From NCBI RefSeq assembly GCF_000151105.2, contig NC_014804.1, forward strand, positions 1,302,001-1,366,000: DNA of 64,000 nucleotides. The letters run 5' to 3'. Every line of letters begins with the position of its first letter. Positions within the stretch are counted from its first letter, which is position 1. Under the pieces are notes generated by a model. It was given only the letters and a program-made list of their open reading frames with translations, was not told the DNA's origin and made no database searches. This DNA is from Thermococcus barophilus MP. GTDB taxonomy: Archaea > Methanobacteriota_B > Thermococci > Thermococcales > Thermococcaceae. This document shows positions 11,418 through 14,962 of the stretch, one piece after another. Made by a program: the position numbers and the translations under genes.

Positions 11418-12175
11418 TAGCAGAGGATCAAAAAGTTCTGCTGGTTGATCCCAGGGGAAAAAGATATCTGATATCTGCAAAGAAGCAGGAGTTTCATACT
11501 GATCTGGGGAAGATAGACCTTAGTGAAATAATTGGGAAAAATTTTGGGGATATCATCGAATCACATAAAGGATATAAGTTCAAAATTTTGAAGCCCAGAA
11601 TAGTTGATTTCATTGATAAAATGAAGCGCGGTCCTCAGATAATTCATCCCAAGGATGCAGCTCAAATTGTTGCTTTTGCAGGAATCTCCCCAGGAGATTT
11701 TATAGTGGAAGCTGGAGTCGGAAGCGGTGCGCTAACTCTTTTCTTGGCAAACATAGTTGGACCTAACGGAAAAATAGTCAGTTATGAAGTTAGAGAGGAC
11801 TTTGCAAGGCTTGCCTGGAAAAACATTGAATGGGCAGGTTTTGATGACAGGGTTACTATAAAGCTCAAGAGCATTTACGATGGAATAGACGAGAAAGAGG
11901 TTGATCACATAATTCTTGACTTGCCTCAACCAGAGAGGGTTGTTGAACACGCTGTAGAAGCATTAAAGCCGGGAGGATATTTTGTGGCATATACCCCATG
12001 TATAAACCAAGTTGCTCGCCTTTATGAAAAGCTGAGAGAGTTCAGGGAGTATTTCATGAGACCCAAAACTATTGAATGCTTAGTTAGAGAGCAGGAAGTT
12101 AGGGAAGAATGCATAAGACCAAGAACAAGGATGATTGCACACACAGGATACATAACATTTGCGAGAAAGATTTAG
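11414..12175 (+). CDS. trmI: tRNA (adenine-N1)-methyltransferase TrmI
   Basis: S-adenosylmethionine-dependent enzyme that makes m1A at position 58, and also at 57 in Thermococcales tRNAs, stabilising the T-arm at high temperature. It has an N-terminal beta domain (LVDPRGKRYLISAKKQEFHT), the SAM loop (VEAGVGSGALTLFLA), an acidic ribose-binding region (VSYEVREDFARLAWKN) and the catalytic-site motif DLPQPE. Length 253 residues is standard. The start is a GTG overlapping the previous stop (GTGA), served by GGTGAG. Its stop codon lies within the opposite-strand C/D RNA gene. Confidence 0.95.
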   Translation: MIAEDQKVLLVDPRGKRYLISAKKQEFHTDLGKIDLSEIIGKNFGDIIESHKGYKFKILKPRIVDFIDKMKRGPQIIHPKDAAQIVAFAGISPGDFIVEAGVGSGALTLFLANIVGPNGKIVSYEVREDFARLAWKNIEWAGFDDRVTIKLKSIYDGIDEKEVDHIILDLPQPERVVEHAVEALKPGGYFVAYTPCINQVARLYEKLREFREYFMRPKTIECLVREQEVREECIRPRTRMIAHTGYITFARKI

Positions 12176-12231
12176 TCAGCAGAGAGGGAGGTTCATCACC
12201 ACCTCAGCGTACCGTGAGGCTCATCCCCTAA
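12172..12231 (-). ncRNA. C/D-box guide sRNA, candidate 23S rRNA 2'-O-methylation guide
   Basis: Read on the minus strand it has the full C/D layout: TTAG terminal stem, C box GGGATGA (one mismatch to RUGAUGA), guide GCCTCACGGTACG, D' box CTGA, spacer, C' box GTGATGA, guide ACCTCCCTCTCTG, D box CTGA, then CTAA pairing with the TTAG. Eleven bases of the first guide (CCTCACGGTAC) are complementary to the universally conserved 23S rRNA segment GUACCGUGAGG. By the N+5 rule the target would be the C of GUAC. A TATA-like CCTAAAAAGAG lies about 25 bp upstream. The 3' end overlaps the trmI stop. Confidence 0.85.
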
Positions 12232-12299
12232 TTTCGAAATTTAGGCTCCTCTTTTTAGGATTTTTGGTTAAGTATGGCTATTGCAAAATTTTCTTCAAT

Positions 12300-12337
12300 G
12301 TTGTTAACCTTTGGTTAACAATACTTTTATAAATACC
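12300..12337 (+). promoter_or_regulatory. nfn promoter with full SurR-type operator
   Basis: GTTGTTAACCTTTGGTT at 12300-12316 fits the extended SurR consensus GTTn3AACn5GTT exactly. Its core is also a perfect inverted repeat (GTTAACC-TTT-GGTTAAC, 12303-12319). The TATA element CTTTTATAAATACC follows at 12324-12337. SurR is the redox-sensing regulator that switches Thermococcales between hydrogen and sulfur metabolism. A site directly upstream of the TATA element suggests activation, by analogy. A second minimal GTTn3AAC lies at 12342-12350. Confidence 0.75.
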
Positions 12338-12395
12338 TCATGTTCACAACCTTTGTAAATGCTCAAGAATGAGCACATGTACGGGGGTGTTCATT

Positions 12396-13262
12396 GTGTA
12401 CAGGATTTTAGAAAGAAAGGAGATTGCAATGAGAAATGTTTGGTTTAAAGTTCACGCTCCACACATAGTTAGAAAACTCCAACCAGGCCAGTTTATAATT
12501 GTTAGAGCTTTCGAGAATGGGGAAAGGATACCCCTTACGCCGGTCACGTGGAGCAGGGAGGAGGGATGGATAGGGCTTATTGTATTCACAAGAGGAAAAA
12601 CAACGATGCAGATAAACACTGAGCTCAAAGAAGGGGATTATTTCCTTAACATTGCTGGTCCGCTTGGCAACCCAGCTCCGATGAAAAACTACGGGAAAAT
12701 ACTTGCTATAGGCTTGTATACGGGTATAGTCGAAGTGTTTCCAATAGCAAGAGCATGGCAGGAAATTGGAAATGAAGTTCACACCCTCCAGGTCACCTTC
12801 GAACCCATGATCCTCTTAAAAGATGAACTCGAAAAGGCTGTTTCAAAACACACTGCTGTAGGTGTTCCGCTTAATCCAGAGAAGAGCTTCCCCGAAAACA
12901 TGAAAAATGTAACCGCCAGGGCAAGAGAAATAGTCAGAGACATGATAAGAAACCTTAAGCCAGATTTAGTGTTTATGGTTGGGCCAGTTGGTGATCAAAA
13001 AGTGATTTTTGAAGTTGTCAAAGAATTCAATGTTCCAATGCTTGTTGATTTACACCCGATTATGGTTGACGGAACTGGTATGTGTGGTGCTTGCAGGGTT
13101 ACTGTTGGAGGACAGATCAAATTTGCTTGCGTTGATGGTCCAACTTTCAATGCATACGAAGTTGATTTTGATGAGCTGATTAAGAGGTCTGGCTATTATG
13201 GGGATTTGGAGATGATAGCAATGCAAGGATATATGCAAAAGATTCAAGGGGGTGCACAGTGA
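12396..13262 (+). CDS. nfnS: Nfn-type NAD(P)H/ferredoxin oxidoreductase small subunit (SudB/Xfn-like)
   Basis: Flavoprotein subunit with an N-terminal FAD domain ([19 protein letters not shown]), a pyridine-nucleotide-type domain and a C-terminal [2Fe-2S] site with the family's unusual Asp/Cys ligands ([16 protein letters not shown] then FACVDGP). The usual GGGxG nucleotide loop is replaced by [11 protein letters not shown], so NAD(H) binding may be altered, as proposed for the Xfn paralogue of Pyrococcus. I chose GTG 12396 (MYRILERK), seven bases after GGGGGTG, because it matches family N-termini; the open frame begins 27 bp earlier. It overlaps the large subunit gene. Confidence 0.92.
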
Positions 13263-14704
13263 TGACAAAGAGAAAGCTCATAAAAAACAGAGTTCCCACC
13301 CCTGAAAGACCGGCTTATGAGAGAATCAAGAGTTTTGAAGAGGTCAATTTAGGATACAACTTTGATCTTGCCCTAATGGAAGCTGAGCGCTGTTTGCAGT
13401 GTCCAGAGAACTATGCTCCGTGTATAAAAGGATGTCCTGTAAACATAAACATCCCTGGCTTCCTTGCTAAGCTTAAAGAGCACAGAGACAATCCATACTT
13501 GGCGGTTAAAGAGGCTTTAAGAGTTATTTGGGCTTGTAATTCTTTGCCTGCCATTACAGGCAGGGTTTGCCCACAAGAAGACCAATGCGAAGGAGTCTGC
13601 GTAATGGGCAAAGTAGGCGACCCAATAAACATAGGAAAACTCGAAAGATTCGTAGCAGACTACGCAAGACTACACGGGATAGACGACGAGCTTTTGATGG
13701 AGATCATCCCCAAAATCGAAAAGAAAGAGCAAAAAGTAGCTGTTGTTGGAGCAGGACCAGCAGGCTTAACCTGTGCTGCAGAATTAGCAAAAATGGGCTA
13801 CAAAGTTACAATATTTGAGGCTTTGCATTATCCCGGAGGAGTCCTAATATACGGAATCCCAGAATTCAGACTACCAAAACAAATCGTGAAAAAAGAGCTC
13901 AAGAAGCTTGAGCTTTTAGGTGTTGAGATAAAGACAGACCATATAGTTGGAAGAACCGTAACAATCCCAGAGCTCATTGAAGAATATGATGCAGTGTTTA
14001 TCTCTACAGGTGCTGGAACGCCCAAACTTCCAGAAGTGCCTGGAATAAACCTCAACGGAATTTACTCAGCCAACGAGTTTCTTACAAGGGTTAATCTAAT
14101 GAAAGCATATAAGTTCCCAAAATACGACACCCCAATAAAAGTCGGTAAGAAGACAATAGTGATTGGTGCCGGAAATACAGCGATGGATGCTGCAAGGACT
14201 GCTCTAAGGCTTGGAAGCGATGTCACAATAGCGTACAGGAGAGGAAGAGAGGATATGACAGCGAGAATTGAGGAGATTCATCACGCTGAGGAAGAAGGAG
14301 TGAAGTTTATGTTCTTTGTGAGTCCCTTAGAGTTCATTGGAGACGAACACGGCAATGTCAAGGCTGTTAAATTCATGAAAATGAAAGTGCTTGATGAGAA
14401 AGAGTCCAATGGAAAGAGAAAAATTATTCCAACGGGTGAAACAATAACAGTCGAAGCTGATACGGTAATTATAGCAATTGGACAGGTTCCAAACAAGATA
14501 ATCTGGAAGACAACGCCCGGCTTGGAGATTACAGAGAAAGGTACTATTGTAGTGGATGAGAATTTGATGACTTCGATTCCTGGAGTTTTTGCGGGTGGGG
14601 ATGCAATAAGAGGAGAAGCAACCGTAATCTTAGCAATGGGAGATGGAAGAAAAGCAGCAAAAGCAATACATGAATACTTGCAGAGGAAAAGCGAAAATGC
14701 TTGA
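13262..14704 (+). CDS. nfnL: Nfn-type oxidoreductase large subunit (glutamate-synthase-beta-like, SudA)
   Basis: About 480 residues. N-terminal Cys clusters for two [4Fe-4S] centres ([16 protein letters not shown], then [14 protein letters not shown]), an FAD Rossmann motif ([17 protein letters not shown]), a second dinucleotide motif ([17 protein letters not shown]) for NADP(H), and a C-terminal FAD motif ([15 protein letters not shown]). With the small subunit it would exchange electrons between ferredoxin and NADP(H), or act as the older named sulfide dehydrogenase. The start overlaps the previous stop as ATGA; a GTG one codon earlier is also possible. Confidence 0.95.
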
Positions 14705-14769
14705 TTTTTCTCCTATATTTTTCTGAATCTTAGGGGATAAATTTATCAGCTCTAACGAGAAATAACCAA

Positions 14770-14827
14770 AGGCTATGAGGAGCCTCACGATAGCTGAGAT
14801 GTGATGACGGGCATACTGGCCGAGCCT
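14770..14827 (+). ncRNA. C/D-box guide sRNA
   Basis: A 58-nt unit with a perfect 5-bp terminal stem (AGGCT/AGCCT), C box ATGAGGA (14775), guide GCCTCACGATAG, D' CTGA (14794), spacer, C' GTGATGA (14801), guide CGGGCATACTGG and D box CCGA (14820, one mismatch). The first guide shares GCCTCACG with the opposite-strand sRNA at 12172. A TATA-like palindrome GATAAATTTATC lies about 25 bp upstream of the 5' end. The RNA targets are not identified. Confidence 0.8.
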
Positions 14828-14901
14828 ATTTGTGGTGGCAGACCTTTTCTACTTACCTTTGAATTCCAATAGCTTTATTTTATCAGGAAGGCAATAATAA
14901 A

Positions 14902-14962
14902 ATGGGCGATGACGAGCTCTAGGGTATCTGAAATTATGATGAAAAAGGAAAGCCGAGCTTAT
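14902..14962 (+). ncRNA. Probable C/D-box guide sRNA
   Basis: C box GCGATGA (14906), guide CGAGCTCTAGGGTAT, D' CTGA (14928), spacer AATT, perfect C' ATGATGA (14936), guide AAAAGGAAAG and D-like CCGA (14953). The ends AUGGGC and GCUUAU can pair through six positions including two G-U. A TATA-like CTTTATTTTATC lies about 25 bp upstream. It sits 75 bp after the previous sRNA and ends inside the stop region of the convergent gene. The shorter second guide and two variant boxes lower confidence. Confidence 0.55.

Follow-up and report, generated by a model that had tools for sequence, protein, structure and literature searches.

Three C/D-box guide RNA genes have been proposed around the nfn operon of Thermococcus barophilus MP, two of them with D' guides that begin with the same core, GCCTCACG. 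This arrangement raises three linked questions: whether these are functional guides, why they sit beside nfn, and whether the shared core descends from one duplicated gene or was acquired by separate RNAs that address a common target. We analysed a 64-kb stretch of DNA around the locus (the window) and compared it with seven genomes of the genus and 94 genomes of the family. The three RNAs, here called A, B and C, and their neighbouring genes are listed below in window coordinates.

11414..12175, plus strand: trmI-like gene for a tRNA methyltransferase, with the Pfam domains GCD14 and TrmI-like_N; solved TrmI structures are among its relatives.
12172..12231, minus strand: sRNA A, sR42 family (Rfam RF01127, layout scan, conservation in the genus). 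5' half: stem TTAG 12231-12228, C box GGGATGA 12227-12221, D' guide GCCTCACGGTACG 12220-12208, D' box CTGA 12207-12204. 3' half: C' box GTGATGA 12199-12193, D guide ACCTCCCTCTCTG 12192-12180, D box CTGA 12179-12176, stem CTAA 12175-12172.
12369..14704, plus strand: nfn operon, an incidental neighbour, with NfnS at 12369-13262 and NfnL at 13259-14704.
14770..14827, plus strand: sRNA B, sR51 family (Rfam RF01305, layout scan, conservation in the genus). 5' half: stem AGGC 14770-14773, C box ATGAGGA 14775-14781, D' guide GCCTCACGATAG 14782-14793, D' box CTGA 14794-14797. 3' half: C' box GTGATGA 14801-14807, D guide CGGGCATACTGG 14808-14819, D box CCGA 14820-14823, stem GCCT 14824-14827.
14902..14962, plus strand: sRNA C, orthologue of T. 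kodakarensis sR38 (layout scan, conservation in genus and family). 5' half: stem ATGGGC 14902-14907, C box ATGACGA 14909-14915, D' guide GCTCTAGGGTAT 14916-14927, D' box CTGA 14928-14931. 3' half: C' box ATGATGA 14936-14942, D guide AAAAGGAAAG 14943-14952, D box CCGA 14953-14956, stem GCTTAT 14957-14962.
14959..15318, minus strand: DUF7132 gene (Pfam PF23476), followed by gcvH.

Both strands of the window were scanned for a C box (one mismatch allowed), a guide, a D' box CTGA, a short spacer, a C' box, a second guide and a D box (one mismatch, GA kept), in this order. Exactly three loci, A, B and C, displayed the complete C-D'-C'-D layout, against an expectation of 0.03 layouts per 64 kb from first-order Markov shuffled windows. 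All three have the length (about 55-65 nt) and guide-length spacing of archaeal C/D-box RNAs, and the coordinates, strands and box order given in the initial annotation were recovered, together with the terminal pairings TTAG/CTAA in A, AGGC/GCCT in B and ATGGGC/GCTTAT, with two G-U pairs, in sRNA C. The C' and D' boxes are canonical (RUGAUGA, CUGA) in every case; deviations of one base occur in the C box of A and, in B and sRNA C, in each of the two outer boxes (C and D), and such variants are common among the orthologues. The TATA-like stretches noticed earlier lie ~25-30 nt upstream, and those of A (cctaaaaag) and B (gataaatttatc) are conserved in relatives; the stretch before sRNA C (tttattttatc) varies more. 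When the isolated strands were folded, they showed no excess stability over chance, which is uninformative either way for k-turn RNAs. At the place usually taken by U-U in the C/D k-turn, B instead has G facing C, a possible G-C pair (14775-14781 with 14820-14823), and sRNA C has C facing C (14909-14915 with 14953-14956).

The Rfam search named two of the three RNAs above their gathering scores. A scored as RF01127 (sR42) with 38.5 bits against a cut-off of 38, a narrow pass that is backed by trmI synteny, and B as RF01305 (sR51) with 48 bits against 38. sRNA C fell under every Rfam cut-off, with 25.8/45 bits for sR44, 24.6/50 for sR49 and 19.8/45 for snoPyro_CD. Layout scan, Rfam and conservation thus bear out the assignment to the C/D-box guide RNA genes. 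A further C/D-like sRNA, at G000:C1:1514630-1514682 (minus strand) elsewhere in this genome, matches sR51 weakly (30.6 bits) and has different guides, GTAAACCCGTTG and GAGGACTGACTAT before CTGA. The window also contains an archaeal SRP RNA gene (19052-19364; Rfam RF01857, 229 bits) and a CRISPR array (32169-32873) with 11 repeats, which Rfam types as CRISPR-DR6.

The three RNAs are conserved to different degrees. A was found in every genome of the genus with a covered trmI region, six in all, and the DNA upstream of it is also well kept. Because seven of nine strong sR42 loci in a second genus, judged to be Pyrococcus-type from these strong sR42 scores, carry trmI at the same end and arranged in the same way, A is the syntenic orthologue of sR42, belonging with trmI. 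B is present in 5/7 genomes of the genus, and sR51 was detected in 60 of the 94 family genomes. sRNA C occurs in 7/7 genomes of the genus with boxes and D' guide almost invariant, and its D' guide CTCTAGGGTAT followed by CTGA, with at most one mismatch, was found in 86/94 family genomes spanning all six genera; relatives differ in the D guide and in the D'-C' spacer. In T. kodakarensis (G024, taken as KOD1, with 23S coordinates that match a published table), the B orthologue occupies 1167375-1167429 and the D' guide of sRNA C 1167311-1167325. The latter falls inside the circular sRNA sR38 (1167276-1167338), a 63-nt RNA to which 11,287 reads align in the wild type, with 106 reads covering the circular junction (PMC9014305); sRNA C therefore has an experimentally seen orthologue. 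In the genus that includes T. kodakarensis, many copies of sRNA C have a longer D'-C' spacer resembling a small hairpin, such as CCGTGTTTTACACGG, which suggests that the length of the C'/D' loop is free in this RNA.

The arrangement around nfn, which had looked unusual, resolves into two conserved parts, a trmI-linked A and a B-C tandem, that meet where trmI adjoins nfn. B and sRNA C sit between NfnL and the convergent DUF7132 gene. Across the genus of T. kodakarensis, sR51 is followed by sRNA C within some 35-50 nt, mostly with DUF7132 and gcvH next and, in many loci, with NfnL on the other side, so the tandem is conserved across another genus. Boxes and guides are nearly invariant within the genus of the window while the flanking intergenic DNA changes. 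Loss of the boxes with the flanking genes kept would speak against functional RNAs; the reverse is seen in genome G088, whose nfn genes are cut to short remnants and whose A and sRNA C are kept with their boxes, which shows that the RNAs are independent of nfn. These remnants lie at about 2320-2650 of G088:C29, between trmI and the sRNA C locus, with A and sRNA C intact on either flank. In genome G087, nfn is intact and B is absent from the site. The position of the RNAs beside nfn is thus incidental, and clusters of two or three sRNAs, like overlaps with the 3' ends of open reading frames, have been described as common in archaea (PMC7994747).

Two such overlaps are present here. The last 4 nt of A run antisense over the stop codon end of the convergent trmI-like gene, and the 3' terminal stem of sRNA C overlaps the stop codon of the convergent DUF7132 gene. 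A cis-acting role, in which the three RNAs would act on trmI, nfn or DUF7132, whether as antisense RNAs or by serving as k-turn control elements, and not as methylation guides, could draw on these overlaps and on k-turn-bearing T. kodakarensis transcripts, some of which are suspected cis-regulatory elements (PMC4247193). We give this role hardly any credence: the double-box layout is complete and the guides match rRNA, the overlaps amount to only about 4 nt, A and sRNA C persist where nfn is gone, and 3' overlaps, besides being common, had effects in reporters that ranged from neutral to slightly negative (PMC7994747). Guide function remains our preferred reading.

The methylated nucleotide is the target base paired five nucleotides upstream of D or D' (PMC4644070). 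By this rule, the D' guide of A addresses 16S C1025 (E. coli about 1075) with 13/13 Watson-Crick pairs, equalled by 0/200 shuffled guides, and 23S C493 (E. coli 461) with 11 bp. At 23S G522 (E. coli 491) its D guide forms a duplex that contains two G-U pairs and a single mismatch and that alone is at chance level; the site lies only 29 nt from C493, a spacing that suits the paired-site habit of double guides. No tRNA target scored above chance for the guides of A and B. Because both guides of the Pyrococcus-type sR42 match the same two 23S sites, C493 and G522, 23S is probably the ancestral target of this family, and A probably still retains it. We interpret the longer 16S match of A in this genus as an extension or a change of aim from 23S. 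A competing interpretation holds that C493/G522 is the sole real target of A, as in Pyrococcus, and that the 16S match is a by-product of GUACCGUGAGG, which is present in both rRNAs. It deserves real weight, since in Pyrococcus sR42 pairs with both of these 23S sites, which lie 29 nt from each other, and A retains the 11 bp at C493 in the window genome, but on balance we lean against it: compared with Pyrococcus, the D' guide is different at either end, in a way that lengthens its match to 16S (13/13) but not the one to 23S (11/13). This 16S-fitting form is kept in 5/6 genomes of the genus, the sixth having 12/13. The possible target switch between ribosomal subunits is a testable prediction.

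The two guides of B behave differently. Its D guide, nearly constant across the family, pairs with 16S U1161 (E. coli 1203) over 12 positions with one G-U, and none of 200 shuffles equals it. Its D' guide falls at 16S C1026, next to the site of A, with 8 bp, a mismatch and then 2 bp; this match is at chance level (45/200 shuffled guides were as good) and below the nine Watson-Crick pairs required by PMC4644070. The GGTAG form of the guide found in orthologues makes 11 bp at the same C1026. A one-base shorter form in genome G012 makes 11 bp at a different 16S site, a sign of how free the drift of this guide is. Overall, the comparison of guides with rRNAs and tRNAs that the initial annotation had suggested found complementarity to 16S for the D' guide of A and the D guide of B, and ambiguous matches for sRNA C.

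The core GCCTCACG at the start of both D' guides is real. A search for it next to CTGA returned eight genome matches, two of which are A and B, and a reversed-pattern control returned four. Two origins had been proposed for it: duplication followed by retargeting, and guides for overlapping or neighbouring sites. Eight identical bases in D' guides only 2.6 kb apart would suit local duplication of one sRNA gene with later divergence of the guides, yet this origin is very improbable on three grounds. First, A and B belong to different Rfam families, have unrelated D guides and occupy different loci in other genera. Second, the D' guides are also unrelated in most Pyrococcus-type genomes, where the A orthologue carries CTTCACGGTACC and the B orthologue mostly AATCTCGCTCGG, at loci far apart. 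Third, the guide of B occurs across the genus of T. kodakarensis, where sR42 gave no match over its Rfam cut-off; the B orthologue there mostly carries CTCACGGTAG (10 sampled sR51 loci) or CTCACGATAG (9 sampled loci, including one from the genus of the window). A duplicate-pair test found no similarity between A and B beyond one guide and no shared ancestral locus. Local duplication of A into B was rejected on synteny and family membership.

The proposal of neighbouring sites fares better, strongly for A (C1025, 13/13) and more weakly for B (C1026). The 16S segment CGUACCGUGAGGC is identical between genera, in 13/13 genomes checked, and the shared core is best explained by this common target, on which two old families would have converged. 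All three phenomena, the drift of guides, their convergence and their use of neighbouring sites, have been documented in archaea before (PMC4644070). A fuller scenario can be drawn, in which the unrelated families converged to methylate the adjacent C1025 and C1026 in this genus and A was re-aimed from 23S to 16S by changes at the two ends of one guide yet kept enough 23S pairing to serve both subunits; we advance it tentatively and consider it rather unlikely. Comparative evidence settles a plausible duplication claim, and the adjacent 16S 2'-O-methyl sites are a testable prediction.

sRNA C offers a choice of target through one highly conserved guide. The first candidate is 23S C2539 (E. coli 2441), where the D' guide makes 10 bp with two G-U; taken alone, the match is not above shuffled guides, and the site itself is invariant. 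The second is C11 of tRNA-Cys, with 11/12 pairs, equalled by 11/200 shuffles. The form of the guide common in the genus of T. kodakarensis makes 13/14 pairs with tRNA-Cys C11 (0/200 shuffles). The tRNA pairing includes one G-G mismatch adjoining the methylation site, and nearly every genome of the family keeps the tRNA-Cys segment. The Pyrococcus-type variant CCCTAGGGTAT strengthens the pairing with 23S C2539 and weakens that with tRNA-Cys C11. The evidence from base pairing is therefore ambiguous between 23S C2539 and tRNA-Cys C11, a choice that is testable.

We conclude with high confidence that A, B and C would function as archaeal C/D-box guide sRNAs, with the core of A and B reached by convergence and the proximity to nfn incidental. 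This conclusion draws on sequence, conservation, synteny and base pairing, and extends to transcription here, protein binding and methylation by inference from the family. In the mechanism that follows, L7Ae would bind the C/D and C'/D' k-turns of each RNA, Nop5 and fibrillarin would be recruited, and a 2'-O-methyl group would be placed on the target nucleotide paired five nucleotides upstream of D or D'. A would guide modification of 16S C1025 via its D' guide, probably keeping the older 23S pair C493/G522; B would guide modification of 16S U1161 via its D guide, and its D' guide matches 16S C1026 more weakly; and sRNA C would rely on its one strongly conserved D' guide, leaving the D guide free. 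RiboMeth-seq data for P. furiosus are available as GSE153501, and the accompanying paper states that the sites are reported separately.

By sequence comparison, the three RNAs are genuine conserved orthologues of known archaeal C/D sRNA families, and they add an example and not a principle. A resembles sR42 (RF01127) in its whole-length match, its position at the 3' end of trmI and the register of both guides, but differs in a shorter D'-C' spacer, in the C box GGGATGA and in the changed ends of the D' guide, which lead to perfect 16S pairing. B matches sR51 (RF01305) over its whole length and shares the constant D guide GGGCATACTGG for 16S U1161, whereas its D' guide departs from the Pyrococcus forms and its D box is CCGA. 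sRNA C shares with T. kodakarensis sR38 (PMC9014305) the D' guide followed by CTGA, a location just downstream of sR51 and a similar length, and differs from it in the D guide and the D'-C' spacer. Its Pyrococcus-type counterparts carry the variant CCCTAGGGTAT, and two loci with this variant score as RF00095 snoPyro_CD.
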